Positions 18,352 through 42,809 of a DNA stretch of 64,000 bases are shown in pieces. Positions within the stretch are counted from its first letter, which is position 1. Each line of letters begins with the position of its first letter. The translations under genes were made by a program, and so were the position numbers. The notes under the pieces are model-generated. The model was not told the origin of the DNA. It searched no databases and worked only from the letters and a program-made list of their open reading frames with translations. Source of the stretch: Acidipila sp. (GTDB taxonomy: Bacteria > Acidobacteriota > Terriglobia > Acidiferrales > UBA7541); NCBI GenBank assembly GCA_010365215.1, contig JAAFGT010000015.1, positions 1 to 64,000 on the forward strand. Direction: 5' to 3'.

Positions 18352-19332
18352 TTACCCGGTGGCTTCCTGAAGCGTTTTGACGTTCTCCTCGAGCGATCGG
18401 CAATAGATCCTCTCCGCTTCCAGCTCCGACCGCAGCTTCTTCACTAGCTGCTCGAGGCGTTGAACTTCCACGTGCAATTTTTGCGTGGCCAATGACGGAG
18501 GTTGCGTCGCGGCCAGTGGTGGCGCCGCCTGTGGTGATCTCGTCGGCTGGCGACTTTCCGCGGCCGTCTCGCGAGCAGGAGTTGCCAGTGCGCTCGGCGG
18601 CGCGACAGGAGCAGCCGCGAGCCGAACAGGCATCCCCGCCGGAGTGGGGGGTGCTGCTGGCGGGGCGGGTGTGGCCGTAGGTGCCGTCACGGAAGATGCT
18701 GTTGCGGCAGGACGCTTCATGTCTGTAGCCGTATTTGCCGCAAACAGATTGCTCCACGCTCGTGTGGCACTCACTGTGGCCGAGGGTGCCGTAGCTGAGG
18801 GTGCCGCCGCTGCTATCGGTGTAGGTGCAGCTGCGGCCGCTGGCGACGCCGTTGACGCGCCCTGAGCCTTCAGGAGCTGCTTCACGCGCGCGATCAGCTC
18901 TTGCGGCTGAAAGGGTTTTCGAATCAGTTCGTCGGCTTTCACCGCCAGCGCTTTATCGGCCACCATGCGGTTCACCACGCCCGACATCAGAATCACCGGC
19001 GTGTGCGCCAATCGCGGATGTCCCTTGATGTGCTGGCAAACTTCGTAACCGTCTTTGTCGGGCATGATCACGTCGCTGATCACCACGTCCGGGCTGGTCT
19101 GCTCCATCTGCGCGATGGCCGACGCGGCATCGTGGCACGCCACCACGTGAAGATTCTCTTTACGAAAGGCGATCTTGATCACCTCGCGCATGGTGGCGCT
19201 GTCGTCGATGAAATATACCGTAGGCGCCTGCGCCGCAGCCGGCGCGGTTGCCGGCGTTGCCGCCGGGGTCCCTGCCGGAACCGCAACCGAACTCGCCACT
19301 GGCCGCTCCACTGAAATATCCGCTTCGCTCAT
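18352..19332 (-). CDS. Response regulator with Ala/Pro/Thr linker and coiled-coil tail
   Basis: A 326-residue protein, last gene of the first chemosensory operon. Residues 38-155 are a receiver with intact acidic pair (FIDDSA), phospho-acceptor Asp87 (VVISDVIMP), switch Ser in LMSG and Lys in IRKPFQP. It is preceded by a 35-residue Ala/Pro/Thr/Val-rich segment and followed by about 115 residues of Ala/Pro/Thr low complexity, then a C-terminal coiled coil (about 285-326, e.g. EVQRLEQLVKKLRSELEAER). No DNA-binding or enzymatic output is present, so output is probably by protein contact through the coiled coil. Its start overlaps the preceding DUF4388 gene stop by ATGA. Confidence 0.9.
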   Translation of the reverse strand: MSEADISVERPVASSVAVPAGTPAATPATAPAAAQAPTVYFIDDSATMREVIKIAFRKENLHVVACHDAASAIAQMEQTSPDVVISDVIMPDKDGYEVCQHIKGHPRLAHTPVILMSGVVNRMVADKALAVKADELIRKPFQPQELIARVKQLLKAQGASTASPAAAAAPTPIAAAAPSATAPSATVSATRAWSNLFAANTATDMKRPAATASSVTAPTATPAPPAAPPTPAGMPVRLAAAPVAPPSALATPARETAAESRQPTRSPQAAPPLAATQPPSLATQKLHVEVQRLEQLVKKLRSELEAERIYCRSLEENVKTLQEATG

Positions 19333-20144
19333 TGGGTACCTCGCTGCGCAATCTCCGCGGCCGTCGTTGCGCCGGCCACAGGCTCGCTCTCCGCGCTATC
19401 GCGCGAGTTTTCGTCAATCTCGCGCATGGCGTCGAGCAGCAGATCGGTGGCCGAGCGCAACACCGTGCGCGATGCCGCCGTGGAGCCGTAGTTGAATTTG
19501 CATACGCCTGCGCCCCGCCCTTCGCAGCTCTTGACGATGTAAATCACCGCCTCGTCGCCGAAAAGGCTGCCGCTTTCGGCATGGGAAATTTCACCGGCAT
19601 CGAAAAAAATAATCCCGTCGGTCTCGCCGGCATTGATATGCAGCGCTCCGGTCTGGCGCGAAGATCCCAGCATCTGGATCACGCCGGAAAGCTCCATATG
19701 CTCCAGGCTGCTGGTCATCTGCGAATCCGCTGTGCCCAGCATCTGCGTGGGCTGGAATCCAACCTGGCGGCTACGCAGGAACTCGCGCACGTGCGCGGCG
19801 ATGCCCTGAGGCCCGAGTTTGCGGTCCACATATTCGTCGCAACCCGCGCTGAACGCGGCCATCAATGCCTGGTCTCCGCCATCGCCCAGGGCAATCAGCG
19901 GAATCTGCGCCGTAGCCGTGTCGGCATGCAGAATCCGGGCCACCGCGTGCGCGTCCATCTCGCGAAGATTCGTGGCGCAGATGATCGCGGCAGGCGTATT
20001 CCATTCCAGCATGGTCAATGCAAACGCGGATTGCGCAGCGGCCACCACTTCGAATCCTTCGTGACGTAATGCGTCGCCGAGCCGCTTGTTGAACAGCACG
20101 TTGCTGTCGATCAGCAGAATTTTCTGCGGAGCGGAGGCGTTCAC
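19329..20144 (-). CDS. PatA-like DUF4388 protein with degenerate receiver
   Basis: A 271-residue protein. Residues 8-125 have the length and secondary structure of a receiver (QKILLIDSNVLFNKRLGDAL), but the phospho-acceptor position reads IICATNL with Ala57 in place of Asp, only one residue of the acidic pair remains (LLIDS), and the switch and Lys positions are not conserved. It should not be phosphorylated in the usual way. Residues about 140-245 match a DUF4388 domain (SLEHMELSGVIQMLGSSRQT, GALHINAGETDGIIFFDAGE), found in PatA-type gliding and pilus regulators. The gene overlaps its neighbours on both sides by ATGA, so it is part of the chemosensory operon. A constitutive scaffold role is inference. 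Confidence 0.88.
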   Translation of the reverse strand: MNASAPQKILLIDSNVLFNKRLGDALRHEGFEVVAAAQSAFALTMLEWNTPAAIICATNLREMDAHAVARILHADTATAQIPLIALGDGGDQALMAAFSAGCDEYVDRKLGPQGIAAHVREFLRSRQVGFQPTQMLGTADSQMTSSLEHMELSGVIQMLGSSRQTGALHINAGETDGIIFFDAGEISHAESGSLFGDEAVIYIVKSCEGRGAGVCKFNYGSTAASRTVLRSATDLLLDAMREIDENSRDSAESEPVAGATTAAEIAQRGTQ

Positions 20145-20623
20145 GCGTGCACCTCCACTCCGCGCAACGGCTCCGCATCAGACGGAATCGCGGACAGGGA
20201 TGCCGCCAGCCGTTCCAGGTCCAGCACCTCCACGACTTCTTCCACTAACAGCAACAGTGAAGCTACATGGGGAGGATGTTCCGCGCTCGCCGGGAACGTC
20301 TCCAAATCCGCGATAATTTCGCATTCACCTTGCACCGGCAGAGCTGTCCAACCCGTGGTTTCGCCGACGTGCTGCTTCGTGATCAGATGGAACTTGAGCT
20401 CCGCGACACTTTCGCCGGCCAGCATCCGCGCCACATCCAACACGGGTACAACGCGCCCGCGCGTGACCAGCACTCCCAGCAGTCGCGGATCGCTGTGCTG
20501 GAAGGTATGCAGGAAACTCGCACCCACCAGTTCGACCACGTTGTCAGCAGGCACAGCGAAGCGTTTCGCGCCCAGTGGGAAGAGCACAAAAGATTTTCGC
20601 GCGCTGATGGCCGGGGGCGTCAT
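20141..20623 (-). CDS. CheW-like coupling protein
   Basis: A 160-residue single CheW domain: KSFVLFPLGAKRFAVPADNV is the first strand pair, followed by LLGVLVTRGRVVPVLDVARM, the conserved region that contacts receptors and CheA, and LLLVEEVVEVLDLERL at the end. CheW proteins join chemoreceptors to CheA P5 domains. It is one of three CheW-type genes in this operon and is more divergent than that at 27978. Start and stop overlap neighbouring genes by ATGA. Several CheW paralogues in one operon suggest mixed receptor arrays. Confidence 0.87.
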   Translation of the reverse strand: MTPPAISARKSFVLFPLGAKRFAVPADNVVELVGASFLHTFQHSDPRLLGVLVTRGRVVPVLDVARMLAGESVAELKFHLITKQHVGETTGWTALPVQGECEIIADLETFPASAEHPPHVASLLLLVEEVVEVLDLERLAASLSAIPSDAEPLRGVEVHA

Positions 20624-21156
20624 GGAGTTGCGTGTTCCTGCGAGATGGACGGCTTTGCGTAAACTCCGCCTCCGGCTTCTTCCAGCATGGCAATTTCACT
20701 AGTCGTCAAGAACGACGCTGGGTTCACCATGGGAATCACGCGCTCTCCCAGCCTCGCCAGGCCCCGGTACCAGCCGCGCTCCTCACCTGCGAACGCCTGG
20801 GGCAGCTCCCACAGTCCGGCGATATCGGTCATGCGCTCGATGCGGTCCACCAGCACCGCTGTGCGCGATCCGCAAAGCAGAAGGACCATGGACGGGCGCG
20901 AAGGCGCAGAGTGAAAATAGGTGCATCCGTTCACTACGTAATAGATCCGCCGCCCGCGCTGCAGCGTGTGCCGCACCTTGGGGATTGCGGGGTGCGAAAA
21001 AGGCGACGCCACTCCGGACATCCCGTCCGTGCTTCCGATCTCCAGCACCGCGCTGGCGGCAATCGCGTAGGTCTCGCCGCCCACAAGAAAAATAATTACC
21101 GGCTCCGCCCGCGGAACTGGCCGCGCGCTGGGCTGGCGGGTGTCGGCAAACCTCAT
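20620..21156 (-). CDS. Divergent CheW-like protein
   Basis: A 178-residue protein with a CheW-like fold: PVIIFLVGGETYAIAASAVL opens the domain, SMVLLLCGSRTAVLVDRIER forms the middle strands and GLARLGERVIPMVNPASFL gives the distal beta-strand region. The LRG-type motif normal in CheW is replaced, with an insertion around residues 60-80 (RRIYYVVNGCTYFHSAPSRP). The start at 21156 is fixed by ATGA overlap with the cheB stop; the frame upstream to 21183 is unneeded. It may bind CheA or a receptor differently from classical CheW. It is next to another CheW-like gene in the same operon. Confidence 0.8.
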   Translation of the reverse strand: MRFADTRQPSARPVPRAEPVIIFLVGGETYAIAASAVLEIGSTDGMSGVASPFSHPAIPKVRHTLQRGRRIYYVVNGCTYFHSAPSRPSMVLLLCGSRTAVLVDRIERMTDIAGLWELPQAFAGEERGWYRGLARLGERVIPMVNPASFLTTSEIAMLEEAGGGVYAKPSISQEHATP

Positions 21157-22391
21157 CGCACACCGATCCGTTCCGCGCCGCAAATCCGCAGCACCAGTTT
21201 TTCAATCGCCGGGAAAATCTGGTCGAGCGGCAGCACTTGATCCACAGCGCCGGCCTTAATCGCCTCGGCCGGCATGCCGAATATCACCGACGTGCTTTCG
21301 TCCTGCGCAATCACCTGGCCGCCGCTGGCCCGGATGGCGCCAGCGCCGCGCGCGGCGTCATTGCCCATGCCCGTGAGCACCACGCCGATGGTGCGCGCTT
21401 TTCCATAGCTTGCCGCCGACTCCAGCGTTACGTCCGCGCAGGGCAGGTACCCGCCGATGCGCGGGCCGTTTTCCAGAGCAATCCGCCCGCCCGCGATAAT
21501 GCGCAAGTGATGCGAGCCCGGGCACACATAGATCGTCCCCGGCTGAATAATCTCGCCGGACTCCGCCTCCTTCACTCGCAGCGCGGCTTTCTCGGCAAGT
21601 TGCTCGCTGAACTGCGCGGTAAAGGTCGCCGGCATGTGCTGTACCACGAAGATCGCCGCAGGAAAGTCTTTCGGAAAGCGCGGAATAAAACGCATCAGCG
21701 TGGACGGGCCGCCGGTCGATGCCGCTACGACGATCAGCGGAAATAGTTCCGGCGTCTTCGGCCCGGATAGTGGCAACGATTTCACGGATGCCTGCCGGGA
21801 GATTGTTTTCGCGACTGACGTCGCCGCTGGCGAATCGGCACGCAAGGAACTTTGCCGGCCGGAAGATGTTTCCGGATGAATTACGGCCTTGCCGTTCGAG
21901 CGTGGCAACTCGACTGGCAGCTTTATCGGAAGCGCTTCGCCTCCGGCATCTGAGCGCGTGGCCGTGCGCACCACGCGCACCTTGGCCGCTATCTTCAATT
22001 TGCGCAACAAACCTTCCCGCACGCTGTTCATGTCCAGGTCAACCGCGCTGGAAGGCTTGGGCACGAACTCGATGGCGCCCAGCTCCAGCGCGCGCAAAGT
22101 GCTTTCGGCGCCCTCGCGCGAATCCGAGCTCACGATCACAATCGGCCGCGGGTTGCGCGACATAATATGCGCGGTTGCTTGCAGGCCGTCCATATGCGGC
22201 ATGTTGATGTCCATGGTGATCACGTCGGGCCGCAGCGATTCGGCCATGGCCACGGCTTCGCGCCCATCCGCGGCTTGCCCCACCACCTCCATTCCCGGAT
22301 CGGCGGAAATGATCTCGTGCAGGACCTTGCGCATGAACGCGGAGTCGTCCACCACCAGCACGCGGATTCGTTTTTGAAGAACGGTGGTCAT
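21153..22391 (-). CDS. cheB: Chemotaxis protein-glutamate methylesterase CheB (cluster 1)
   Basis: A 412-residue receptor methylesterase/deamidase that removes methyl groups put on receptors by CheR. Residues 9-125 are a receiver with Asp61 (VITMDINMPHMDG). A Ser/Pro-rich linker follows, longer than usual (about 130-215). The catalytic domain shows the Ser of VVAASTGGPSTLM, the His of VVQHMPATF and the Asp of GMGNDAARG, the complete triad. The start at 22391 lies 7 bp after the cheA stop, with AGAAG before it. It belongs to the same transcription unit as CheA and CheR, giving this pathway a complete adaptation module. Confidence 0.96.
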   Translation of the reverse strand: MTTVLQKRIRVLVVDDSAFMRKVLHEIISADPGMEVVGQAADGREAVAMAESLRPDVITMDINMPHMDGLQATAHIMSRNPRPIVIVSSDSREGAESTLRALELGAIEFVPKPSSAVDLDMNSVREGLLRKLKIAAKVRVVRTATRSDAGGEALPIKLPVELPRSNGKAVIHPETSSGRQSSLRADSPAATSVAKTISRQASVKSLPLSGPKTPELFPLIVVAASTGGPSTLMRFIPRFPKDFPAAIFVVQHMPATFTAQFSEQLAEKAALRVKEAESGEIIQPGTIYVCPGSHHLRIIAGGRIALENGPRIGGYLPCADVTLESAASYGKARTIGVVLTGMGNDAARGAGAIRASGGQVIAQDESTSVIFGMPAEAIKAGAVDQVLPLDQIFPAIEKLVLRICGAERIGVR

Positions 22392-22398
22392 CGCTTCT

Positions 22399-25300
22399 CT
22401 AGGACACCGGCACCAGCACACGCTCGGGCGCAGCAGTCCGCTCGGCGGCAATCATCTGCGCTACCACGGCCAGGAACTGCTCTTCCTGCACGGGCTTGGT
22501 CAGAAATCCGGCCGCGCCTTCTTTCACGGCGCGCTCGCGATGCTTGGCACCCGCGCGCGAAGTAACCACCAGCACGGGAATATTTCTGGTCGATGGGTTG
22601 TGCCGCAGAAGTCCCATCAGCTCGTAGCCATTCATCCGCGGCATTTCCAGATCGGTAATCACCAGGTGGCAGCCGTTGATGGTGGCAAACTCGAGCGCTT
22701 CCAGGCCGTCGGAGGTCAGCTTGACGCGATAACCCGCTTTCTCCAGCAAGCGGCCCACGAATTTGCGGATGCTGATCGAATCGTCGGCCACCACCACCAG
22801 CTTTTCGTTCTGCACCTGGTCAATCGCTTCGCTGGGAATGGTTCCCGCAGCCACGGCGGCGGCGCCGGGCGCGAAGATGCGCGCGGCGGTAGCGGTGGGC
22901 ATGATGGCGCGGCGCTCGCCGGTGGCGAAAGCCACCAGGCGATTTACGTCGATCAGCAGAATCAAGCTGCCGTCGGAGGCGATGGTCGTGCCCGGGAAAA
23001 GCTTGACGTTGCGCAAGTATTCGCCCAGGCTTTTAATCACAATTTCGTCTTTGCCCAGAACTTCTTCCACCACTACGCCCATCTGGCGGCCGGCCACGTT
23101 GACGATGACCATGCGGTAGTAGCCGTTGATCGGCTCCAGCGGCGCCAGGCCGAGCTGGTTATCCAGGCGAATGACTTCGGTGACCACGTCACGCACGCGA
23201 GTCATCAGCCGCCCGCCGACCTCTTCGATCTCTTCCACGCGAATCCGGCGAATCTCTTCGATCGAAGCCAGCGGAAAGGCGAACTGTGTGGTTCCACAGC
23301 GCACAAACAGCGCCTGCGAGATAATCAGCGTCAGCGGAACCTTGAGCAGGAAGCACGTGCCTTCGCCCAGCTTGCTGCGAATCTCGATCTCGCCGTTCAT
23401 CGCCGTCAGGTTCGAGCGCACGACGTCGAGACCTACTCCGCGACCGGCCAGCTCATTTTTCAGCGCCGCCGTGGAGAATCCCGGACGAAAGAGAAATTCA
23501 CGCAGCTCGCGCTCGCTCAGCCGCGGAGCCTCTTCGGCGGGAACGAATCCACCCTCCACGGTGCTGCGCCGAATCTGTTCGTAGTCCAGGCCGCGGCCGT
23601 CATCTTCCACTTCGATATAAATATGATTACCGCGATGGTAGGCGCGGACCGAGACCTTGCCGCTGGCCGGCTTGCCCGCGGCCAGGCGGTCTTCGTTTTT
23701 CTCGATGCCATGGGCGACAGCATTTCTCACCAGGTGAATCAGCGGATCGGAAATCTGCTGGATGATGTTGTTGTCCAGATCCGTATCCGCGCCGGAGAGC
23801 GCCAGCTCCACCTGTTTTCCGCTGGCCTTGGCGGCATCGCGAACCGTGCGCGTGAGCCGCGTGTAAAGATTGACGATGGGCACCATGCGCGCTTGCGTAA
23901 TCTGATCCTGCAGGTTGTGCGCCAGCTTGGTGAAGTCGTCGATGTCGGAATCCACGCGCCCCACGAAAGATTCGAGCTGGGTCAGGACTTCGGTGACGTC
24001 CGCGGAAATTTCCGTGAGCGACCGCGAGAGGATGCTGAAGTCGTCGTAACGGTCCATCTCCAGCTCGCTGAATTCGCCGGTAGAAGAACTGGCGGATGAC
24101 GCCGGGGCGGGGAAGCCGCGGCCGAAGGAATTTGCCGGCGGCGGCGCGCCGTAGCTGCCGCTCAGTCGCGTGAATTCATATTTTTCCTCGAAGTCGGCGA
24201 TCTTGTCGGAGAGTCGCACTTTCGAGAAACTCAGAATGTCCACGAGTTTTTCCAGCTCCGCCAACCGGCCCAGCATGCGCGTGCGGTTGATCACCAGCTC
24301 GCCCACGGCATTCATCATCTGGTCCAAGCGCTCGAGCGAGAGCCGCACCGACTTGGTCGCTGTCGCTGCCGGCGCTCGGCGCGTTTCGTAGGGTTCCGGC
24401 GCGGCGATCCGGTGTCCGTTTCCGTTTGCCGGCACCGCCTCTGCCAGAGCCGCCGCGATGGGCAGGCCTGCGTCAGGAGAGACGTGAATTGTTCCTGGCT
24501 CCGGCTGTTCATCCGGCCCCGCCGGCGCCAACGCATTCAGCCTGGCCAGCAAACTGCCCGATTCCGCGCGCATTTCGTTCTCGTCCGGCCAGTCGCGATG
24601 CAGGAATTTTTTTAGAACGTCCACGGATTGCAGGCAGACGTCAACGATGGCCGGGCTGGCATCGAGCTCTCCATCGCGCAGCCGCCCAATGAGGTCTTCC
24701 ACGCGATGAGCGATTGCGGAGATGCGATGCAATCCCACCTGCGCAGCCGAGCCTTTGATGGTGTGGATGGAGCGAAACAGCCGGTGGATGTCCGCGGCAT
24801 TCGGCTGAGCTTCGAGCGCCAACAGGCATTCCGTCACAATCTGAAGATGCTCCTCGGCCTCGGGAATGAAAAACTCCAAAATCTCCTCGGGCAGGTCTCC
24901 GTCCTCAGGCACGGAATCGAAATAACTCCCGGGGCCCTGCTCCGTCGCACGATGCTCCGTCGAACGATGCTGTGTCGAAGGATGCTCCGTCGCTGCGCTG
25001 GCGCGAGCTTCTGTCGCGAACTCCGCGGCACCGGTTTCGGCATCTGCGGAGCCTGGCTGCGGGAAAGCAAAGAGGTATCGCTGCTTGAACGCGGCGATAT
25101 CGTCTGCGGTCTCCTTCCCGTCGGCATTGATCTGCAGCAGATCGGATTCCAGGACGGCGATTCCGTCCGAAAGGAACTCCGTCAGCGGGCCATGGATTTC
25201 GGGACCGATGGAGGCATTGAGCGCGTACTGGAAGATGTGGGCAATTTTCCCGGACACTTCCGAAAATAGCGGAAAGCCGTAACTCCCCGAGCTGCCCGCC

Positions 25301-25455
25301 AACGTGTGCGCGGAAATGTATAGCCGGTTGAGCTCTTCCTGCTGGCGGTGCGGCTCCAGGAGAATCCCCGAAAATTCGCGCAGGTACTGGAGATGATCGG
25401 AGGCTTCACGCAGGAAGACCTCAATGGATTCGCGCTCCTGATGCTTTCCGCTCAC
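22399..25455 (-). CDS. Hybrid CheA histidine kinase with two HPt domains and receiver
   Basis: A 1018-residue chemosensory kinase of the ChpA/PixL/FrzE kind. Two N-terminal histidine phosphotransfer domains are visible: His50 in SAHTLAGSSGSYGF and His231 in SIHTIKGSAAQVG. They are separated by a linker with an in-frame repeat (EHPSTQHRSTEHRATEQ). The dimerisation domain starts around residue 370 (KSVRLSLERLDQMMNAVGEL), followed by the ATPase (NAVAHGIEKNEDRLAAGKP, GRGVGLDVV), a CheW-like domain and a C-terminal receiver (VVVADDSISIRKF, VITDLEMPRMNG, FLTKPVQ). The GTG start at 25455 overlaps the CheR stop (GTGA). The attached receiver may act as output or phosphate sink. The symbol is withheld because cheA/chpA/frzE naming depends on the output. 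Confidence 0.95.
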   Translation of the reverse strand: MSGKHQERESIEVFLREASDHLQYLREFSGILLEPHRQQEELNRLYISAHTLAGSSGSYGFPLFSEVSGKIAHIFQYALNASIGPEIHGPLTEFLSDGIAVLESDLLQINADGKETADDIAAFKQRYLFAFPQPGSADAETGAAEFATEARASAATEHPSTQHRSTEHRATEQGPGSYFDSVPEDGDLPEEILEFFIPEAEEHLQIVTECLLALEAQPNAADIHRLFRSIHTIKGSAAQVGLHRISAIAHRVEDLIGRLRDGELDASPAIVDVCLQSVDVLKKFLHRDWPDENEMRAESGSLLARLNALAPAGPDEQPEPGTIHVSPDAGLPIAAALAEAVPANGNGHRIAAPEPYETRRAPAATATKSVRLSLERLDQMMNAVGELVINRTRMLGRLAELEKLVDILSFSKVRLSDKIADFEEKYEFTRLSGSYGAPPPANSFGRGFPAPASSASSSTGEFSELEMDRYDDFSILSRSLTEISADVTEVLTQLESFVGRVDSDIDDFTKLAHNLQDQITQARMVPIVNLYTRLTRTVRDAAKASGKQVELALSGADTDLDNNIIQQISDPLIHLVRNAVAHGIEKNEDRLAAGKPASGKVSVRAYHRGNHIYIEVEDDGRGLDYEQIRRSTVEGGFVPAEEAPRLSERELREFLFRPGFSTAALKNELAGRGVGLDVVRSNLTAMNGEIEIRSKLGEGTCFLLKVPLTLIISQALFVRCGTTQFAFPLASIEEIRRIRVEEIEEVGGRLMTRVRDVVTEVIRLDNQLGLAPLEPINGYYRMVIVNVAGRQMGVVVEEVLGKDEIVIKSLGEYLRNVKLFPGTTIASDGSLILLIDVNRLVAFATGERRAIMPTATAARIFAPGAAAVAAGTIPSEAIDQVQNEKLVVVADDSISIRKFVGRLLEKAGYRVKLTSDGLEALEFATINGCHLVITDLEMPRMNGYELMGLLRHNPSTRNIPVLVVTSRAGAKHRERAVKEGAAGFLTKPVQEEQFLAVVAQMIAAERTAAPERVLVPVS
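24920..24996 (-). repeat. In-frame short repeats inside the hybrid CheA gene
   Basis: Units of the form GATGCTCCGTCG recur at about 12-21 bp spacing (plus-strand reading between 24935 and 24993), encoding EHPSTQHRSTEHRATEQ on the minus strand in the linker between the two HPt domains. All copies keep the frame. Confidence 0.75.
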
Positions 25456-26321
25456 AGGCTTCCCTCGAGCACTGTAGCTTCGCGCGAGCGCACCTCGACG
25501 GCCGGCTTGCGGTTGAGAATGCAATCGCCCAGCCGGATGGATTCGAACTTCACGCCCGCTTTTTTTGAAACGGATTCGGCATGCCCCAGCAGCAGGTATC
25601 CACCGGGTTCCAGGTATTCGTAGAACCGCTGGATGAGCGAGTTGCGGCGCTCCTCGGAGAAATACATCAGAACATTCATGCAGAAAATGCAGTCCAGGCG
25701 CCCCACATAAACCGCCTGGGCCAGATTCATGGTTTCGAAGCTGACCATTTTGCGGATGCGCGGCTTTACCGAAAACCCGTCGCGCCCGCGCGCGAAATAA
25801 GCCTCCATCTGTCCGGGAGTCAGGTTGCCCAGGCGGCTCTGCGGATAGACGCCGCGCTCGGCGAAACGCAGTGCCTGCTGGCTGATGTCGGTAGCCAGGA
25901 TTTCAATGTTCCAGGCATCTACGAATTCGAGGTTTTCCGCCAGTGCGATAGCGATGGAATAAGGCTCCTCGCCCGTGGAGCAGCCCGCGCTCCAAATGCG
26001 CAGGGTCCGTGGATTCTCCCAGAACTTCCGCGCGTGAACCTCCGGCAGAACCTTTTTCACCAGCGCATCGATCACCGCGGGATACCGGTAAAACGACGTC
26101 TCCTGCGTCAGCATGCTTTGCAGCATCTCGTCGTACTCGACATTGGATGAGCGGACCAGACGTAGCAATGCAGCGCCGTCGGCCAGGCCTCGCTCCTGCA
26201 CGTACTCGCGCACGCGCGTTGAGAAGAAGCGTTGGCGCGAAGCATCGAACAGGATTCCGGAGCGCTGCTCGATCAGCGTGCGGATCTCGTTGAGCTCGGC
26301 TTCCTTGAGGTGCAAGGTCAT
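25452..26321 (-). CDS. cheR: Chemoreceptor methyltransferase CheR (cluster 1)
   Basis: A 289-residue S-adenosylmethionine-dependent methyltransferase that methylates glutamates on chemoreceptors. The N-terminal helical domain is followed by the SAM-binding core: SAGCSTGEEPYSIAI, ILATDISQQALRFAERGVYP and IFCMNVLMYFSEERRNSLIQ, then EPGGYLLLGHAES near the end, all family hallmarks. The length is typical. It lies between the MCP gene and the hybrid CheA gene, which overlaps its stop codon. Confidence 0.96.
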   Translation of the reverse strand: MTLHLKEAELNEIRTLIEQRSGILFDASRQRFFSTRVREYVQERGLADGAALLRLVRSSNVEYDEMLQSMLTQETSFYRYPAVIDALVKKVLPEVHARKFWENPRTLRIWSAGCSTGEEPYSIAIALAENLEFVDAWNIEILATDISQQALRFAERGVYPQSRLGNLTPGQMEAYFARGRDGFSVKPRIRKMVSFETMNLAQAVYVGRLDCIFCMNVLMYFSEERRNSLIQRFYEYLEPGGYLLLGHAESVSKKAGVKFESIRLGDCILNRKPAVEVRSREATVLEGSL

Positions 26322-26400
26322 CTTTGCTCGGTCCCTTTTTCTTGGCCAAAACTAGCGGACAAGCAGCGTCCGGCTGGAGTTCCGGTCGCTTGTGTCGCTT

Positions 26401-27909
26401 TTACCGATGCGCTCCCACCGGCACTGGAGGAGACTTTCTATCCGGCTGGCCGTCATGGCCGTTACCGCTCGCGGGACGCCCGTCGGAACGGGTTTCAGAA
26501 CGCTGTTCTGAACGCTGTTCCAAACGCTGCTCGGAACGGAACTGCGCCAGGGCTTCATTCAATTGATCCGAAAGCTTGACCATGTGGCCCACGGTACTGA
26601 CCGTCTGCCGCGCGCCCTGCGAGGTCTGCCGGGTAATGCCGGAAATGATCTGCATGGCATTGGCGACACCTTCCGTGCCGCGCACCTGTTGTTTGGAGGC
26701 CAGAGAAATTTCCTGGACCAGCTCGGCCGACTGGCGCACCACGGAAGAGATCGCTTCGAGCGCCTTGCCCGCCTGATCGGCCAGGCCCGCGCCTACTTCC
26801 ACTTCCTTGGTGCCTTCTTCCATCACGACTACCGCTTCGTTGGTCTCCGCCTGAATGGCCTTGATGAGTGCGGCAATATCTTTCGTGGCGCTGCGGGAAT
26901 GTTCCGCCAGCTTGCGCACTTCGTCGGCAACCACCGCGAAGCCGCGGCCCGCCTCGCCCGCGCGCGCCGCTTCGATGGCCGCGTTCAAAGCCAGCAGGTT
27001 GGTCTGCTCGGTGATGTCGTTAATCACGTTGATGATTTCGGAGATTTCCAGCGAACGATCGCCCAGCGATTTGATTTTCTTGGCGGTGGCCTGCACCGAA
27101 GCGCGGATGCGGTGCATGCCTTCCAGCGTATCGCGCACCGCGCGGTTGCCCTGCTCGGCGGCATCGAGCGCGCGGCGCGCAGCTTCGGCGCTGGCTTCCG
27201 CGTTATTCGATACCTGCTTCATGGAGACGGTCAGTTCTTCCACGGCCGAAGAAGTGTTGGTGATTTCCTGGTCCTGCTGGGTCGCGCCCGCGGTCATCTC
27301 GTCGGCGGCCACCAGAATCTGGTTTGCGCTGGTGGCCACGTCGATGGCGCTCTTGCGTACGCGCTCCAGCACGGTGGTGAAGTTGTCGAGCATGTAGTTG
27401 ATCGAATCCACCACGTTGCTCAGCGAATCGTTGGTCACCTTGCCGCGCAGCGTCAGGTCGCCGCGCGCCACCTGGTTGATTACGCTCAACAGCTCGGTGA
27501 TGCTGCGCTGCAATGATTCTTGCGCCTCCTGGCTCATGTACGCTTTCGAAATGCGCCCCGCCGTGCGGTTGAAGTTGTCGGCGATGAATCCGAATTCGTC
27601 ATGGGAGTCGATCTCCGCCTTCGCGCGGTGGTCTCCCGCCGCCAGCCGCTCGGAAAAATCCGCGAGCTCTCCTGTGGGTTTGAGCACGCGGCTGTTGAGC
27701 AGCGCGCCCAGCATAAAACCCGTGAACAGCATCAGCAGCACGGCGCACAGCACTTCCAGCGCCGCGCTGCCCGGCAGTTGCCCCAGGTCAAACAGGGAAT
27801 GACCGGCAGCCTGCGCGCCCGCATGGAACGCCAGTCCCAGCACTGCTCCCAAAGCTGCGATGGTCACTCCAACCAGAAGCCATATTGTCGAACTCAGCCG
27901 AGCTTTCAT
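26401..27909 (-). CDS. Methyl-accepting chemotaxis protein with minimal periplasmic part
   Basis: A 502-residue chemoreceptor. Two membrane helices (residues about 8-30 and 48-68, [21 protein letters not shown]) are separated by fewer than 25 residues, so there is no room for a periplasmic ligand-binding domain. A HAMP domain ([20 protein letters not shown]) and then a long cytoplasmic signalling coiled coil follow, with the conserved hairpin tip [20 protein letters not shown]. The C-terminus is Arg/Gln/Ser-rich with an [12 protein letters not shown] repeat. The start at 27909 has GGAGG upstream. Input is probably cytoplasmic, membrane-derived or through partner proteins. It overlaps no neighbour but lies in the operon between CheW and CheR. 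Confidence 0.94.
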
Positions 27910-27977
27910 CTGCGTCCTCCGTCCTTCAATCTCTCGTGTTCCGCTTCCGCGTTTCCTATCCGATCTGCCGACGCGCC

Positions 27978-28499
27978 TCAAATCACCGGCACGGGAAAAA
28001 CTTTAATCAGCCGGCGCATGTCCAACGCCAGCGCCAGCCGGTCGTCATGCCGCAGCAGGCCGTAACAGTGCGGGACATCCAGCGGCGCCTGCTCCAGCAG
28101 CGACGGATCGGTGACGCCGAATGTTCCGATCACTTCATCCGCGGCGATTCCCAGCCGCAAATGATCGCGATCGGCTTCGGCCCGCAGCGCCGCCACCACC
28201 ACATGTTTGGGATTCATTCCCGGCCGGCGCCCTTCCGTGAACGCGATATCCACCAGCGGCACGATCGAACCGCGCAAGTTGAACAGGCCCATCAGGAAGG
28301 GCGGCGACAAGGGAACCCGCGTCACCAGCGGCCAGTCCACCACCTCTTCCACGTCCAGCACGGTGATGCAGAACCTTTCGCGTCCCGCGCGAAACACGCA
28401 GAACTGCTGCGAAGGCTGCCGGTGCTCATATGGCGCGCCGCTTTCCGAGTCGGAAAATTGAAATTCCGCTACATGTGTCTGTTGCTGCGTTTCTCTCAT
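27978..28499 (-). CDS. cheW: Chemotaxis coupling protein CheW (cluster 1)
   Basis: A 173-residue CheW domain protein. After a short polar N-terminus the domain opens with [20 protein letters not shown], followed by [20 protein letters not shown], which contains the classical LRG motif, and later [14 protein letters not shown]. It couples the MCP encoded next to the hybrid CheA. The ATG at 28499 overlaps the stop of the preceding CheY-like gene (TAATG), so the longer frame is rejected. Of the three CheW-like proteins of the operon this is the canonical one. Confidence 0.94.
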
Positions 28500-28861
28500 T
28501 ACACGAATCTCCGGACGGCCTTCAGCAGCTCCTCGCTGGTGAACGGTTTGGCCACATGCCCGTCGGCTCCTTGCTGCTGGCCCCAAAATTTGTCGCTGGT
28601 GGTGGCTTTCGAGGTGACGAACACAATCGGGATCTTCTTGTACAAATTGTGCTGTTTCAGCTCGCGGCAGGCTTGGAATCCATTTCGTTGCGGCATGACC
28701 ACGTCCATCAGGATGAGTCCCGGGCGCTCCATGTCGATGGTCTCTTCCAGGCGCGCGGGATCGTTCAGGCCCACCGAGGTGTAGCCCCCCTGCTGCAGCA
28801 TTTCCTGGATTAACCGCACTGTCGCCTGCGAATCATCCACAATCAAAATCTTGCTGGCCAC
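28499..28861 (-). CDS. Single-domain response regulator, first gene of che cluster 1
   Basis: A 120-residue receiver domain with no output part. It starts at a GTG (28861) preceded by GGAGG at seven bases; the upstream in-frame codons are rejected. The acidic pair Asp9/Asp10 (LIVDDSQ), phospho-acceptor Asp53 (LILMDVVMPQRNG), switch Thr in FVTSK and Lys in VAKPFTS are intact. It resembles PilG/PilH-type regulators of pilus chemosensory systems as much as flagellar CheY. It is the promoter-proximal gene of a ten-gene minus-strand operon and is followed by CheW with a TAATG overlap. Confidence 0.93.
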   Translation of the reverse strand: MASKILIVDDSQATVRLIQEMLQQGGYTSVGLNDPARLEETIDMERPGLILMDVVMPQRNGFQACRELKQHNLYKKIPIVFVTSKATTSDKFWGQQQGADGHVAKPFTSEELLKAVRRFV

Positions 28862-28894
28862 GCGAACGCCTCCGCACTTCTTCATATAAAGATT

Positions 28895-28910: not shown

Positions 28911-29116
28911 CACGCTGCGCTGGCGCTGAATTCAAAAAAATAGCTTAGCTTTAATCGATTCAGCGTCTTAGAGCTGTCCTTGGACATGCCTGACTTCAGC
29001 GAAATAGACCCGGCATCCCTGCACCTGTCTCACTGTGCGACTCTGTCTCAGGTATTTATTTCTTCGGGCAGGGATGAGAACGCGGTTTGGCAGGATTTGA
29101 GGCGGCAGACAATTCT

Positions 29117-30739
29117 TCAGGACTGCAACCCTTCAGCTTCCTCGATGTAGGCCATCAACCGTTTGGCGGTGATGGAAAGATTCACAGCAGCTTCCGTGTT
29201 GTTCGCCGCCTTGGCTTGCTCCACGCATGCCTGCAGCTTGGTGGTTTCCGTATGCGCCAGGTCGAGGGTGAACGCGAGCCCCGGAAATATACCCGACGCC
29301 TTGATGGCATCCATGGCTACAGCTACCAGCAGCCGAGCCACCACCGCACGGCGCAAGTCTTCCGAAACTTTTCCGCCGTTGCTGACAAACGCGCTGACTT
29401 CCCAGGAAGAGAGGAGGATCTTGGTCTTCAAATATTCGACGCTTCTCATGGAGCGGCCAAGCGTCGGTGTGGCCGAGATTACCTGTTCGCAGATTGACTC
29501 CATGCACGCTTCCGGATCGACTTCGGGGCTAGCGGTGGCGCAGGTTGGTCCGCCGGCGGCGGTCACCCTGGTCGCGCCGTTCTTTCCTGGGTGTTTAAGT
29601 GTAGCGACAACGCGGGGTCCGTCTGGTGACTTAGCTTGCGTTTCCTGCCGCGCGGCCAAAAGTTTTCGCTTGGTAACCGATTTCGCCAAGGCCGTCGATC
29701 TGTTTTCCGAACGATTCAGTTTTGGCAGCACGTCGGTAAATCGGTGTGGAGCGGTAGCAGAGCTTGCAATATTTCCCCGGCCGTTGGGCGCCCGCACGGG
29801 GGTTGGCGCCGGGCCCGGCCGCATCACCGCCGTCTCCACTGCGCTGCGAATGGCTAACAATTTTCCGAACGACTGTCCCACGGAATTTTCGGAGTAGTTG
29901 CGCGCAAACGGCTGCGTCCATCTCGAGCAAAACTGACCAAGCGCTAGAATGGTTTCTTCCTTCGAGAGACCTGCCGCATGGCAGTCCACCGTTTTTACGC
30001 CCTTCTTCTCCAGTTTTTGCAGTGCATCGCGGATCGCTGCCAGGTCGGCGTGCATGAGCTGTATGAAGGCGCGCCGCACCAGAAAATTGAATCGCACAAA
30101 TGCAACCAGGGCTGAGGGGTTGTAGAACATGTCGCCCGCGGCGCTCTTGAGCTCGCGACCCTGTTCCAGATATCCGGTCTCCATAATGTCCCGCAGGCTG
30201 CGGCACTCCCCGAGTCCTTGCACCAGTTCCTCGAGTTGTGCGAACCATTCCAGCGGACGGATTTCCACTTTGCCCAGTACAGGCTTGAGAACTTCCGCCA
30301 CTCCCTCCATCTGAATGGTCTGGCTGGAGATCTCCGCCGGAGCGCAAAGCGCGAAATATTGCACCAGGAGAAAATCGACTTTTTCGCCGTCGCTGGGGCT
30401 TTTCTTCGGTCGCAGCAGGTGCCGCAACACCAGTGCGCGCAGCGATTTTTCGGAGGGGTTCTGACGCAACGCGGATTGCAGGAACTGCCGGAAGTGTTGA
30501 ACGCCGATGCGCTGGTCCATATCGTCCAGCCAGGTGCGCGCCCGTTGCACCTGCTCAGGTTTCGGCTGTACGGCAGAGGCCTCGAGATCGGCGCATGGCT
30601 TACCCAGCCCGAATTCTTTCGCCATCTCCGCATAGATGGGATACACCTCCAACGCCCCGGCCCACTCGGCCGCTAAATAAGAGGCATTTCCAGCAAGGTT
30701 CTGCGCCGCGCTTGTAACCGTAGCCAATTTTTCGGTCAT
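29117..30739 (-). CDS. Hypothetical protein of 540 residues between chemosensory clusters
   Basis: I do not recognise a domain. The N-terminal about 300 residues are helical and evenly charged (e.g. RTWLDDMDQRIGVQHFRQFL, LRALVLRHLLRPKKSPSDGE), followed by a Pro/Ala/Thr/Arg-rich disordered section (about 305-400) and a helical C-terminal domain (about 410-540, e.g. RRAVVARLLVAVAMDAIKAS). There is no signal peptide or membrane helix, so it is cytoplasmic. Its position between two chemosensory systems and the sigma-54 regulator, on the same strand as both minus-strand operons, suggests a signalling role, but this is only positional. The start is an ATG at 30739 with GGGATA upstream. Confidence 0.8.
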   Translation of the reverse strand: MTEKLATVTSAAQNLAGNASYLAAEWAGALEVYPIYAEMAKEFGLGKPCADLEASAVQPKPEQVQRARTWLDDMDQRIGVQHFRQFLQSALRQNPSEKSLRALVLRHLLRPKKSPSDGEKVDFLLVQYFALCAPAEISSQTIQMEGVAEVLKPVLGKVEIRPLEWFAQLEELVQGLGECRSLRDIMETGYLEQGRELKSAAGDMFYNPSALVAFVRFNFLVRRAFIQLMHADLAAIRDALQKLEKKGVKTVDCHAAGLSKEETILALGQFCSRWTQPFARNYSENSVGQSFGKLLAIRSAVETAVMRPGPAPTPVRAPNGRGNIASSATAPHRFTDVLPKLNRSENRSTALAKSVTKRKLLAARQETQAKSPDGPRVVATLKHPGKNGATRVTAAGGPTCATASPEVDPEACMESICEQVISATPTLGRSMRSVEYLKTKILLSSWEVSAFVSNGGKVSEDLRRAVVARLLVAVAMDAIKASGIFPGLAFTLDLAHTETTKLQACVEQAKAANNTEAAVNLSITAKRLMAYIEEAEGLQS

Positions 30740-31005: not shown

Positions 31006-32424
31006 TCAGCTAATATCTACGGGCGTCGCCGACGCTGCTTCCATTTCCGGGCTGCCTTCCGGCCGCAGGGAAATACGGTAGCGCTTCAATTTGCGGTATA
31101 AAGTCGCGCGGCTGAGTCCCAACATCTGGCACGCCAGCGATTTATCTCCGCCTACCTGGTGGAATACTCGCAAAATCGTTATGCGTTCCAGGTCTTCCAG
31201 TTGGTTCGAGTAGAGTGCCGGGTCCTCGGCTGGGATCGATGAGTGCCGCGAGGCGCGCAGCGCCGGCGGCAGGTCATTCACGTCGATGCTGCGATGATCC
31301 CCGAGCGCCACGGCGCGCGCCATGCTGTTTTCCAATTCGCGCACATTTCCCGGCCAGTCATATTCCATCATGCACTGTATCGCTTCGGGTGTGATCAGGA
31401 TGGTTTCGTCCGGCGCGTAGCGCGCAAGAAATGTATGCGCCAGCATGGGAATGTCGGACTTACGATCGCGCAGCGACGGCAAGTGAACAGTGACCACATT
31501 CAGCCGGAAATAGAGATCCTTGCGAAAGGTCCCTTCCCGGTAGGCGGCCTCCAGGTCGCGGTTGGTCGCCGCGATCACGCGGATGTGCACGTGCATGGTG
31601 TGATTGCTTCCTAGGGGCCGAACCTCTTTTTCCTGCAATACGCGCAACAGTTTGGCCTGCATCTCCAGCGGCAGCTCACCCACTTCGTCGAGAAATACTG
31701 TGCCGCCGTTGGCCGTTTGAAAAAGTCCCATCCTGGATTTCACCGCACCGGTGAAAGCGCCCTTCTCATAGCCGAAGAGTTCGCTCTCCATGAGCGTGGG
31801 TACCAATGATCCGCAGTCCACCGCAACAAACGGCAGCTTGGCCAGCGTGCCTCGAAAATGGATGGCCCGCGCCACCAGCTCTTTCCCGGTGCCGCTCTCT
31901 CCGGTAATTAATACCGGCGTTCGCGTCTCCTTTAACCGCACGATCATCCGCAGCACGTCCTGAATTTTCGCCGAAGAGCCCACGATGCCCTGGAGCTGCG
32001 ATTCGGAGTCCACGCGTTCCCGCAGGAACTGGTTTTCCGCCACCAGACGCACCTTCTCCGCCATGCGCTGCAGCAACAGACGCAGCTTCTCCACGCGGAA
32101 AGGTTTTTCAATATAGTCGTAGGCGCCCAGTTTCATGGCCTCAACGGCCGAGCCGACGGAACCGTGCCCGGTCATGATGGCCACTTCGGTATGCGGCAGC
32201 AGGGCCTTGAGCTGCTGCAGCAGTCCCATGCCGGATACACTGGGCAGCTTGAGGTCCGCCAGCACGATGTCCGGCGCCTGCGTTTCGATCTGTGCCAGCG
32301 CGGCTTCGGCGCTTTCCGCCTGCGCGCAGGCATAGCCCAGCGACGCGCCAATGGTCATGCACAGCTTGCGAATGCTGGGCTCGTCCTCGACGATCAGAAA
32401 ATGGATGAGAAATTCTTCGTTCAT
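31006..32424 (-). CDS. NtrC-family sigma-54-dependent response regulator
   Basis: A 472-residue transcriptional activator. Residues 5-120 are a receiver with Asp57 (VLADLKLPS). Residues about 145-385 are an AAA+ ATPase with Walker A GESGTGKE, the GAFTGA loop ([14 protein letters not shown]) that contacts sigma-54, and Walker [11 protein letters not shown]. The C-terminus is a Fis-type helix-turn-helix ([20 protein letters not shown]) followed by a short tail. On phosphorylation it should open sigma-54 RNA polymerase promoters. The start at 32424 overlaps the stop of the preceding receiver gene (ATGA). Targets may include the chemosensory operons on either side, where -24/-12-like sites occur. 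Confidence 0.96.
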
Positions 32425-32834
32425 GGTTTTCCGAATGTCTGTTCTACGATCTGGGTAAGCTGCCCCGCCCGGAACGGTTTTTCGACGCATGGCGCGCCGC
32501 TCGATTTGAGCATGGAGAAGGTCTCCTCGCTGGCGGTGTCTCCGGTAATGAAAATAATACGCGTGCGCATCTCCGGGCGATGGTTGCAGATCCAGTGATG
32601 CACGTCCGCGCCATCCACCCCGCCGGGCATTCGTATGTCGGAGATCACGCCCAGATACTTCTCCGCCTCGAGCAGGCGCAAGCCTTGTGTCCCGCTAGCC
32701 GCGGGAACCACGCGGTATCCATGAACCTCGAGCGCCCTGCAAAGAAACGCCCGCACCGCCGGCTCGTCCTCGATCACCAGAATCGGCGCGGCACCTTTTG
32801 CGGAGTCTTGCCCGTATGAAACCGGCGAGGGCAT
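32421..32834 (-). CDS. Single-domain response regulator
   Basis: A 137-residue receiver between the sensor kinase and the NtrC-type regulator. The acidic cluster ILVIEDEPAV (Glu22, Asp23), phospho-acceptor Asp66 (GVISDIRMPGGVDG), switch Thr in FITGDT and Lys in VEKPFRA are present. There is no output domain. The start overlaps the kinase stop (TGATG), and its stop overlaps the NtrC start (ATGA), so three genes form a coupled unit. It could serve as a phosphate sink or an intermediate in a relay to the NtrC-like protein. Confidence 0.92.
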   Translation of the reverse strand: MPSPVSYGQDSAKGAAPILVIEDEPAVRAFLCRALEVHGYRVVPAASGTQGLRLLEAEKYLGVISDIRMPGGVDGADVHHWICNHRPEMRTRIIFITGDTASEETFSMLKSSGAPCVEKPFRAGQLTQIVEQTFGKP

Positions 32835-35245
32835 CAACGTCCCGCCTCGGCTGCGGCCAGCGGACCTGCCAGCGGCACCGTTCGGCCGGCCAACGGCAGG
32901 CGCACGATAAACGTGCTGCCCGGCGCTCCGGTATTGTTGTGGCATAGAATCTCTCCGCCGTGATCGCGCACAATCCCATAGCAAATACTCAGTCCCAAGC
33001 CGGTGCCGCGTCCCACTTCCTTGGTGGTGAAGAAGGGATCGAAAATACGGTCCGGATAGGCGATGCCCGTACCGTTGTCGCGGAAGAGGATCTCCACGTA
33101 GCCGTCTCCGTGGCGCGTCTCGATCTCGATGCGGCCAGGACGCCGAGTCTCGCCGAGCGCGTCGTACGCATTATTCAGAATATTCAGGAATACCTGCTGG
33201 AGCTGGTGTGAATCTCCCACGATGCTCGGCAATTCGTTTTCCAGCCGCTCCACGATTTCCAGGCCGTGGCTGGCAAAGTCGTAGGAGCGAAGCTGCAGCG
33301 TGCTTCGTACAACGGCGTTGAGCTGGATGGGCGCTCGCTGTGCCGGCGTCTGTCGCGCGAAGCTCAGCAGGTTCTGGACGATCACCTTGGTGCGCTCGGC
33401 TTCTTGCAAAATCACTTGCAGGGATTCTCTGGTTGATTCCGGCAGGTCTTCGTTTTCCAGCAGAAGGTCGGCAAAACCGAGGATCGCCGCCAGTGGATTG
33501 TTCACTTCGTGTGCCACGCCGGAGACCAGCTGGCCCACCGCGGACATTTTCTCCGCATGACGCAGCTTGGCTTGCAAAATGGCGGCATCGGTAACATCGG
33601 CCATCACCACCACAATGCTGTTCACCGTGCCTTCTTCGTCGCGCATGGGGCTCAGATTCACGGAAAACTGCCCGCTGCGCCCGTCGCTGGCGCGGATGGA
33701 CAGCTCCAGGTTATCCACCGCCTGGCCGCGCAGCGTGCTCTCGAGCGCCGCGGCCAGTGCCGGCCGTCGCGATTCAGGCACAAATTCCAGCAGCGTGCGC
33801 CCCACCAGATCGCCTTCCCGGTAGCCGGCTTCGAAGCACCGGCGATTGGCGTAGCTCACCAGCCCCGCCGTGTCCAGCACCAGGATCATGCTCTGCGTAT
33901 TGTTCAAAATGTTCAGGTTGAAGTCGCGCTCGCGCTCCAGTTGCGACTGAAAATTCTTCTGTTCCGTCACATCCAGCATCAGCCCACGATGCTGCACTAC
34001 GCGTCCCCGGGCGTCGCGAACGGCAAAGACGTTTTGCAGCGTCTGGATCACCGTGCCATCTTTACGCCGCAAGGGAACGTCGTAATTCCGCAGCACCCCT
34101 TGCTTCTCGACCGCCTCCAGGAAGAGCTGGCGCTGGTCCGGCCACAGGAAAAGCTGCGCCAGGTTCACCGGCAACAGTTCCTCCCGGCTACCGTAGCCCA
34201 GCATCCTCACCAGCGCGTCATTGACTTCCAGGAACCGGCCCTCCGGCGTCGAGAAGAACAGCCCTTCCTGAATGTTGTCGAACAGCTCGCGGTAGCGGCG
34301 TTCCGCTTCGCGGCGGTCGGTAATGTCCTTCAGCACGTGAATCGTCCGCGTGCTTTCGTCCGCCCCTCCGCGCATTTGCGAAGTGGACACCAGGTAGGTG
34401 CACTCCTCGGCGGTGTACACGCATTCACCGGATTCATCCGCGCTCACATGGCAGAACGGGCACGGTTCCAGCGCTCCCGCCGGCCCCAGCGCGTTGAGCG
34501 CGCGCATGCTCACGCCGATTAGCTCCGCCGGAGGCACGCCCACGGTTTCAGCCAACGGGCGATTTACGCGCAGGATGCGGTTGTTCTGGTCGTGCACCAC
34601 GATGAAGTCGGTGATGGCGTCGAAAACTTCCACCCACTGTTTGCGCGACTGCTCGATCGTCGAGAACAGGCGCGAGTTTTCGAGCGTGATCGAGGCGTGA
34701 CCGGCCAGGGCCTGCAGCAACTCGCGGTCGGCAGGCGAAAGATCGCTGCCGCGGTCCGCCAGGCAGAGCACGCCCAGCAGGTCTCCCTCGCTTCCAGTCA
34801 TCCGCGCCAGCGCCACGTCGTGCCACTCCAGAGACTCCGCCAGCGGCGCGCCCAGCACGTCCGCGGCTGCGCCGTCGAACACCGCCTCCGCACGATCGCT
34901 CGCCAGCGTAGTGAGCGTCGCGCTCAACTGCCGCAGGCAGGCCTTGTCCGCCCTCGTTGCGGTGCCGTGAAGAAAAACGATCTCCAGGTGCGAGCTGCGC
35001 GCCAACGCCAACGCCGCTGCGCGCGCGCCCAGCAGGTCCGCTGCGTGCATGGTAAACCGCTCGACGAATCCCGGCAGATGCAGCGACGGGCGCAGTTCCA
35101 GCGCCAGGCTCATCAAGTTTTCCGCGCGCCGGCGGTGTTGCTCCGAAGTCTCGAGTAGCCGCGCGTTTTCGGCTTGGGCCTGGGCGAGTGTGGTTCGGGG
35201 AGCGCGTGGAGAGACGGTACGCCGCTGGCGATTCCGCTGGACCAT
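32834..35245 (-). CDS. Soluble PAS/GAF sensor histidine kinase (NtrB-like)
   Basis: An 803-residue cytoplasmic kinase with no membrane segment. In order: a short coiled coil, a GAF-like domain (about 40-200), three PAS domains (about 210-340, 330-460, 450-575; e.g. FDAITDFIVVHDQNNRILRV, RELFDNIQEGLFFSTPEGRF, NNTQSMILVLDTAGLVSYAN), the dimerisation/phosphoacceptor helix with His in VSGVAHEVNNPLAAILGF, and an ATPase domain (NILNNAYDAL, RDNGTGI, GRGTGLGLSI). The first PAS contains a Cys-rich segment (PCPFCH...CVYTAEECTY). The ATG at 35245 has AAGGGA in front; a TTG at 35269 is weaker. It should phosphorylate the adjacent receiver and NtrC-like regulator. Confidence 0.95.
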   Translation of the reverse strand: MVQRNRQRRTVSPRAPRTTLAQAQAENARLLETSEQHRRRAENLMSLALELRPSLHLPGFVERFTMHAADLLGARAAALALARSSHLEIVFLHGTATRADKACLRQLSATLTTLASDRAEAVFDGAAADVLGAPLAESLEWHDVALARMTGSEGDLLGVLCLADRGSDLSPADRELLQALAGHASITLENSRLFSTIEQSRKQWVEVFDAITDFIVVHDQNNRILRVNRPLAETVGVPPAELIGVSMRALNALGPAGALEPCPFCHVSADESGECVYTAEECTYLVSTSQMRGGADESTRTIHVLKDITDRREAERRYRELFDNIQEGLFFSTPEGRFLEVNDALVRMLGYGSREELLPVNLAQLFLWPDQRQLFLEAVEKQGVLRNYDVPLRRKDGTVIQTLQNVFAVRDARGRVVQHRGLMLDVTEQKNFQSQLERERDFNLNILNNTQSMILVLDTAGLVSYANRRCFEAGYREGDLVGRTLLEFVPESRRPALAAALESTLRGQAVDNLELSIRASDGRSGQFSVNLSPMRDEEGTVNSIVVVMADVTDAAILQAKLRHAEKMSAVGQLVSGVAHEVNNPLAAILGFADLLLENEDLPESTRESLQVILQEAERTKVIVQNLLSFARQTPAQRAPIQLNAVVRSTLQLRSYDFASHGLEIVERLENELPSIVGDSHQLQQVFLNILNNAYDALGETRRPGRIEIETRHGDGYVEILFRDNGTGIAYPDRIFDPFFTTKEVGRGTGLGLSICYGIVRDHGGEILCHNNTGAPGSTFIVRLPLAGRTVPLAGPLAAAEAGR

Positions 35246-35703
35246 GGGGAATCCCTTCGATTCAAACAAATTGCAGGATGTCGGCCGCTGAGTCGACCGA
35301 GCTTGGATTATTTCAGTATCTCAAAATGAGTCAAGATCGAGGGCGACCGTTGGTGTCTTCTCGATTACCGTGCATCCCAAGTTTTATCAGCAACATATCT
35401 TTAGCAATCTCCCGATTTCCTTTCCGGAGTCCTGACGCTATTTTTTCTACCGCTCTGCCAGTGAGGAACCGCAGCGTCAGTCTCACGCTGAGACCTATCT
35501 TCATTCCATTGCCGGCCGTGAGACAAAATCCGGGTGAAGAAGAGCAGGTTGCGTAAAAAATGTGACCGTAAACTTGCGACTAAGTGTTTGTCTTCCCAAT
35601 GGATAGAGGAACGGAGCATACCCGAAAGGTTTGTCCGTGTGCTGGCATTGCCCGTGCACATTCCTCTGAGTCTGGTGGTGTTTGCTGAAGGAGAGGTGAA
35701 GCT
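35246..35703. other. Intergenic region between divergent signalling operons
   Basis: About 458 bp separating the sensor-kinase operon (minus) from the TonB-C/MCP operon (plus). No gene is supported. The right part contains a candidate sigma-54 promoter (35643-35658) and a good ribosome binding site (AAGGAGAGGTGAAG, about 35687-35700). The left part should hold the promoter of the kinase operon but no convincing element was seen. Confidence 0.6.
35643..35658 (+). promoter_or_regulatory. Candidate sigma-54 promoter of che cluster 2
   Basis: TGGCATTGCCCGTGCA matches the sigma-54 consensus TGGCACG(N4)TTGCA at TGGCA and TGCA, with GG and GC at the correct 10-bp spacing. The start of transcription would fall near 35669, leaving a 35-nt leader with a good ribosome binding site before the ATG at 35704. 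The gene for an NtrC-type activator is divergently transcribed just upstream. Confidence 0.45.
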
Positions 35704-38134: not shown

Positions 38135-38151
38135 AGCCGGCGAAAAAAAAT

Positions 38152-38628: not shown

Positions 38629-38685
38629 GTTCATGGCGCCGTATCGATGCCCGCGGCGACGGTCAGAAAGAAAGTAGCGGAGATC

Positions 38686-42769: not shown

Positions 42770-42809
42770 CTTCCGGAGCAGGCAGCACCATAGCGGTGAG
42801 GAGAATCAC

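Follow-up and report, generated by a model that had tools for sequence, protein, structure and literature searches.

The closest described systems to the one reported here are the chemosensory pathways of the type IV pilus (Tfp) class, among them Pil-Chp of Pseudomonas and Acinetobacter and the cyanobacterial Pix/Tax pathways. Systems of this class steer bacteria that crawl over surfaces with retractable pili. In Pseudomonas, the route from the Pil-Chp receivers to the PilB motor has been stated as an open question (PMC11656802), and in Synechocystis, PATAN proteins interact with the pilus motor PilB1 (PMC9090330; PMC7690835). Here we describe a ten-gene chemosensory operon (28867 to 18352, minus strand) in a 64,000-nucleotide stretch, hereafter the window, of an Acidipila sp. 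genome (GCA_010365215.1, contig JAAFGT010000015.1). The window forms part of one contig (C49) of a 4.1 Mb genome of 91 contigs and ~98% completeness. The operon shows a Pil-Chp-like core, to which is added a receiver-PATAN fusion with no phospho-aspartate. We consider that it probably encodes a Tfp-class (Pil-Chp/Pix-like) pathway controlling type IV pilus activity or polarity, and put the probability of this reading at roughly 0.7.

Organization of the operon

A Pfam domain scan assigns chemosensory domains to ten consecutive minus-strand open reading frames, in the order receiver (REC1), CheW (CheW1), methyl-accepting chemotaxis protein (MCP), CheR, hybrid CheA, CheB, two further CheW proteins (CheWb and CheWc), receiver-DUF4388 and a receiver with a long tail (REC2). 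An earlier note, made from the sequence alone, had described an operon of ten genes with MCP, CheR, CheA, CheB, a canonical CheW and two divergent ones, and these domains are found as named. It had also listed a DUF4388 protein, which is present but carries an N-terminal receiver that the note missed, and two output-less receivers, of which REC1 is a stand-alone domain but the last is not, its receiver continuing through a disordered linker into a conserved coiled coil at the C terminus. In NCBIfam, the operon proteins received only generic receiver, CheB and CheA names, and nothing more specific.

Six of the nine junctions overlap, by TAATG (REC1/CheW1), GTGA (CheR/CheA and CheWc/DUF4388) or ATGA (CheB/CheWb, CheWb/CheWc and DUF4388/REC2). 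The other three are gaps of 7 nt (CheA/CheB), 68 nt (CheW1/MCP) and 79 nt (MCP/CheR); the overlaps noted before are thus real, but the description of the operon as overlapping at nearly every junction and fully coupled went too far. The overlap pattern is not a product of chance, since it is kept in orthologues (CheR/CheA in 21/21, CheWb/CheWc and CheWc/DUF4388 each in 22/23, DUF4388/REC2 in 21/22).

A Pil-Chp-like core

REC1 (28499..28867; Response_reg 90.9 bits), which starts at a GTG and has an alternative ATG at 28987, shows canonical DD/D/K residues by alignment. It aligns with A. baumannii PilH-like and cyanobacterial receivers and displays the PilH/PixH-like signature SK..SD.FWG.QQGA. 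CheW1 (27978..28499; CheW 77 bits) is a canonical CheW in a PilI-like position. The order CheW-MCP-CheR-CheA-CheB is the same in a plasmid-borne Pil-Chp-like cluster of P. aeruginosa.

The MCP (26401..27909) is PilJ-like, with two transmembrane helices, a HAMP domain, a second HAMP-like repeat and a 40-heptad (40H) signalling domain. Comparison with Tar, WspA and the receptors of A. baumannii (PilJ-like) and Deinococcus shows two 14-residue insertions relative to Tar, which yield the 40-heptad pattern; this length is not specific by itself, as WspA is likewise 40H. The second HAMP-like repeat (GDL...DSIN) is shared with the A. baumannii PilJ-like and Deinococcus receptors and is found in neither Tar nor WspA. 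In the MCP tree, the orthologues of the window protein group with the Deinococcus receptors at 97/96. HAMP and MCPsignal are the only domains found, and ~20 residues separate the two hydrophobic helices; the receptor therefore has no periplasmic ligand domain.

CheR (25452..26321; CheR 188.9 bits) occupies the PilK position and is followed by a ChpA-like hybrid CheA (22399..25455), in which Pfam recognises Hpt in two stretches, H-kinase_dim, HATPase, CheW and a C-terminal receiver. Its extended P3 region contains the motif FSELEMDRY, to be compared with FDPLEMDQY in A. baumannii, FDALEMDRY in a cyanobacterium and FDELEFDTY in Deinococcus. The pattern F.xLE[MLF]D.Y, an empirical criterion devised in this analysis, occurs in 9/9 orthologues tested and 6/7 Tfp references, and in none of the flagellar-type (E. 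coli-like; 0/6) or Wsp-type (0/5) CheAs. CheB (21153..22391; CheB 206 bits, receiver 89 bits), in the ChpB position, has a phosphorylatable receiver as judged by its site motifs. The divergent CheWb (20620..21156) and CheWc (20141..20623) match CheW weakly, at 25 and 54 bits respectively, and the position of CheWc is conserved.

An aspartate-less receiver fused to a PATAN domain

The ninth protein (19329..20144; DUF4388 47.2 bits, cutoff 25) joins a receiver to DUF4388, the family by which Pfam recognises the PATAN region in regulators of cyanobacteria. Its REC-PATAN order is the reverse of that of an Allocoleopsis protein, in which DUF4388 precedes the receiver. The phospho-aspartate is absent in all 65 readable distinct orthologues, its place being taken by alanine (54), serine (10) or glycine (1), and the second acidic residue is lost too. 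Receivers devoid of the aspartate are a known phenomenon. The predicted model nevertheless keeps the receiver fold, and a fold search with it returned only receiver-containing structures among the matches listed, mostly over the N-terminal half. In the literature searched, no paper joined DUF4388 with response regulators. In Deinococcus plasmid clusters, a receiver-DUF4388 protein collinear with that of the window (profile match 95.5%, E 1.5e-8) lies directly after CheA. Because two of the three Deinococcus proteins examined keep an aspartate at the aligned site, strict loss of the phospho-site is an Acidiferrales feature. By analogy, we propose that the receiver-PATAN protein acts as a pilus-motor adaptor. 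Elsewhere in the genome (contig C18; L182, 7496-8239) lies the gene of a further receiver-DUF4388 protein, a divergent paralogue with 24% identity.

The last protein, REC2 (18352..19332), retains the active-site motifs of a phosphorylatable receiver, followed by a Pro/Ala-rich disordered linker and the conserved coiled coil.

Distribution and conservation

With CheWb as query, orthologues were found in 26 of 81 relatives. All belong to the same family, and around them gene order is identical wherever contigs are long enough (Candidatus Acidiferrales); one copy (L058) has no REC1 match at the threshold used. Scanning public genome contigs with an alignment of the receiver-DUF4388 proteins yielded 62 loci with unchanged operon order, in records nearly all named Acidobacteria, many of them Candidatus Acidiferrales or Acidiferrum. 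A sample of the phylum added two strong matches, both in another family. One of these genomes has all ten genes together with the gene of the orphan protein and that of the NtrC-type regulator found upstream of the operon (see below). In the other, CheWb and CheWc are undetectable, suggesting from sequence comparison that these two proteins may be dispensable. The search of genomes for the gene set that the earlier note had suggested thus shows the order to recur across Acidiferrales, uncultured Acidobacteria of soil; outside that family, one genome has the full set.

Pilus machinery and the weight of the assignment

The earlier remark that no flagellar or pilus genes accompany the operon is correct locally, but the genome as a whole encodes pilus machinery: PilB with an MshEN domain, PilT beside it, PilC, PilS and PilR on contig C17, and PilM, PilN, PilO, a weak PilP match and a secretin (PilQ) on contig C73. 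FliG was sought in the genome and not found. In the family, a PilT at least 70% identical is present in 25/26 operon carriers and 17/23 non-carriers (one-sided p=0.033).

Several observations weigh against a Tfp-class pathway acting on pili. The PilT association is weak and confounded by shared ancestry and the completeness of metagenome-assembled genomes; the surroundings of the operon contain no pilus gene; and many relatives bearing type IV pili do not have it, pili being common without the operon. A PilJ-type periplasmic ligand-binding domain was sought in the MCP and not found, the exact P3 motif is missing from the P. aeruginosa plasmid CheA, and neither CheWb nor CheWc gives a profile match to the A. 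baumannii protein in the ChpC position. The MCP tree gives weak support (71/89) to a grouping of all Tfp references with the orthologues of the window protein, and two CheA trees, whose branches are severely long, do not recover such a grouping. When constrained, the CheA tree does not reject the Tfp grouping (p-AU 0.354), nor does it reject a Wsp grouping (p-AU 0.11). Architecture and synteny thus carry more of the class assignment than phylogeny does.

A possible mechanism

Phosphate flow, motor binding and behaviour are modelled here on Pil-Chp (PMC12632253) and Pix as analogues. The membrane receptor, having no periplasmic sensor, would change state probably on a membrane, cytoplasmic or pilus-linked cue, and would be linked by CheW1 to the CheA hybrid and adapted by CheR and CheB. 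Phosphate from the Hpt domains would go to the receiver of CheA itself and on to CheB, REC1 (PilH-like) and REC2. Two routes would lead from there to the pilus motors. REC2 would act via its coiled-coil tail, and the aspartate-less receiver-PATAN protein would bind a PilB-type motor, gated by protein contacts and not by its own phosphorylation.

Such a pathway would offer a specific hypothesis for the way in which soil Acidobacteria lacking flagella steer their movement on surfaces or their attachment, and pilus chemosensing with PATAN outputs would no longer be confined to cyanobacteria. Because the conserved receiver-PATAN protein cannot take phosphate at the usual site, it also lends itself to a clean study of motor binding apart from phosphorylation.

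Neighbouring genes and alternative outputs

The best-surviving alternative is a sub-case of control over pili, in which the operon governs pilus-linked adhesion, surface sensing or DNA uptake and not movement. Type IV pili serve all three roles in many bacteria. Against this reading, a retraction ATPase, PilT, is encoded beside PilB, which fits motility but also uptake; we regard a role of this kind as rather unlikely.

A less probable alternative is prompted by the genes upstream of the operon. The nearest, on the minus strand (29117..30739), encodes a predicted mostly helical orphan with no Pfam match and, in a fold search against the protein data bank, no structural relative. It is a conserved syntenic neighbour, 34-46% identical across relatives and in the same place wherever their contigs extend far enough, and is possibly a partner. 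Beyond it lie, on the same strand, an NtrC-type sigma-54 response regulator (31006..32490) and a GAF/PAS histidine kinase (32834..35269), which like the orphan are usually upstream of the operon in relatives. A short receiver within 31006-35269 (minus strand) is conserved along with the regulator and the kinase. The PilS-PilR pair, with pilBTC on another contig, is separate from this regulator and kinase.

An alternative-cellular-function (ACF) pathway could use these neighbours for a transcriptional output, through the NtrC-type regulator, the extra receiver and the PAS kinase. The regulator and kinase do stand upstream in nearly all relatives with long contigs, the regulator is also present in both genomes of the other family, and the CheA trees leave the class unsettled. 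However, these regulators come with a kinase of their own, the 29117-30739 gene and intergenic gaps stand between them and the operon, the PATAN domain and PilJ-like MCP point instead to pili, and the operon has no GGDEF output of the kind found in Wsp clusters (no GGDEF was found by Pfam in its ten genes). A transcriptional output is accordingly hard to favour.

Least credible is a Frz-like pathway reversing cell polarity via MglA/MglB, with REC2 as a RomR-like protein: RomR occurs in Acidobacteria (PMC3441718) and REC2 has its general layout of receiver, disordered linker and conserved helical C terminus, but the genome has no match to Roadblock/LC7 (MglB, PF03259), although intact RomR co-occurs with MglA/MglB (PMC3441718), and by eye REC2 shows no clear sign of the Glu-rich RomR-C, in which a Trp and a Pro are invariant. 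Of the resemblance to Chp/Frz-like pathways seen earlier, the Chp part is favoured by architecture and synteny, and the Frz part is left without support by the missing MglB match, in a comparison from which FrzE was absent.

About 7 kb upstream of the operon, on the opposite strand (36119-43750, plus), lies a second, different chemosensory cluster with MCP, CheW, CheR, CheA, CheB, a receiver and a CheX-like protein. All six CheW-domain matches of the genome fall in this cluster and the operon.

Comparison with known systems

In the literature searched, no paper combined Acidobacteria with Pil-Chp. The Wsp system, of the ACF class, also has a single operon with MCP, CheW, CheR, a second CheW, hybrid CheA and CheB. 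However, its output is a GGDEF regulator, its CheA has no P3 motif and its MCP has no second HAMP-like repeat.

With Pil-Chp, the operon shares a PilH-like receiver, a 40H receptor with a second HAMP and a multi-Hpt CheA with a C-terminal receiver. The A. baumannii cluster, arranged as REC-REC-MCP-hybrid CheA, has the PilJ-like second HAMP and 40H length in common with it. The operon differs in having two recognised Hpt stretches, against four by Pfam in A. baumannii ChpA, and in lacking the PilJ periplasmic sensor and an adjacent PilG-PilH pair; in turn, it adds the aspartate-less receiver-PATAN protein, the coiled-coil receiver and two divergent CheW proteins. The Pil-Chp-like plasmid cluster of P. 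aeruginosa (pNY8709-IMP; L185, 311-9753) includes a 1,917-residue hybrid CheA. On an Acidovorax plasmid (L143, 77-8295), a PilT-like ATPase lies directly upstream of receiver-CheW-MCP-hybrid CheA.

Cyanobacterial Pix/Tax systems share the CheA P3 motif and, on an Allocoleopsis plasmid, unite a PATAN regulator, receiver, CheW, MCP, hybrid CheA and extra CheW in one cluster. There, however, an upstream gene encodes PATAN at the N terminus and the receiver at the C terminus, whereas in the operon this order is reversed and the phospho-site gone; here CheR and CheB also lie within the operon.

The nearest relatives found are the uncharacterised Deinococcus plasmid clusters, which have REC-CheW-MCP-hybrid CheA, then receiver-DUF4388, then a receiver with a tail (L133, 11173-11934; L134, 10575-11357; L146, 9712-10473). 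In contrast to the operon, they have no annotated CheR, CheB or divergent CheW, often contain two MCPs, keep the aspartate in two of the three proteins examined and end in a receiver whose tail is not a coiled coil. Deinococcus radiodurans, an easily handled laboratory species with a DUF4388 gene beside CheA, is reported to be surface-motile (PMC12393216). The tail of the L146 receiver weakly matches Roadblock/LC7 (E 0.019), a hint of a link to MglA-type GTPases.

We know of no characterised system with the exact ten-gene set, as had been remarked before; given its Pil-Chp-like core order and the recurrence of the PATAN arrangement in Deinococcus, the operon nevertheless counts as a variant and not as an unknown pathway. 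Tentatively, Acidobacteriota and Deinococcota might share an undescribed pilus-chemosensory sub-type, in which PATAN on a degenerate receiver would be a phosphorylation-independent adaptor between array and motor, direction would be set by competition with the tailed receiver and the upstream orphan would be a further component; we hold this to be doubtful. The core of the operon is ordinary pilus-type chemosensing, and its notable parts are the conserved aspartate-less receiver-PATAN fusion and the parallel with Deinococcus.

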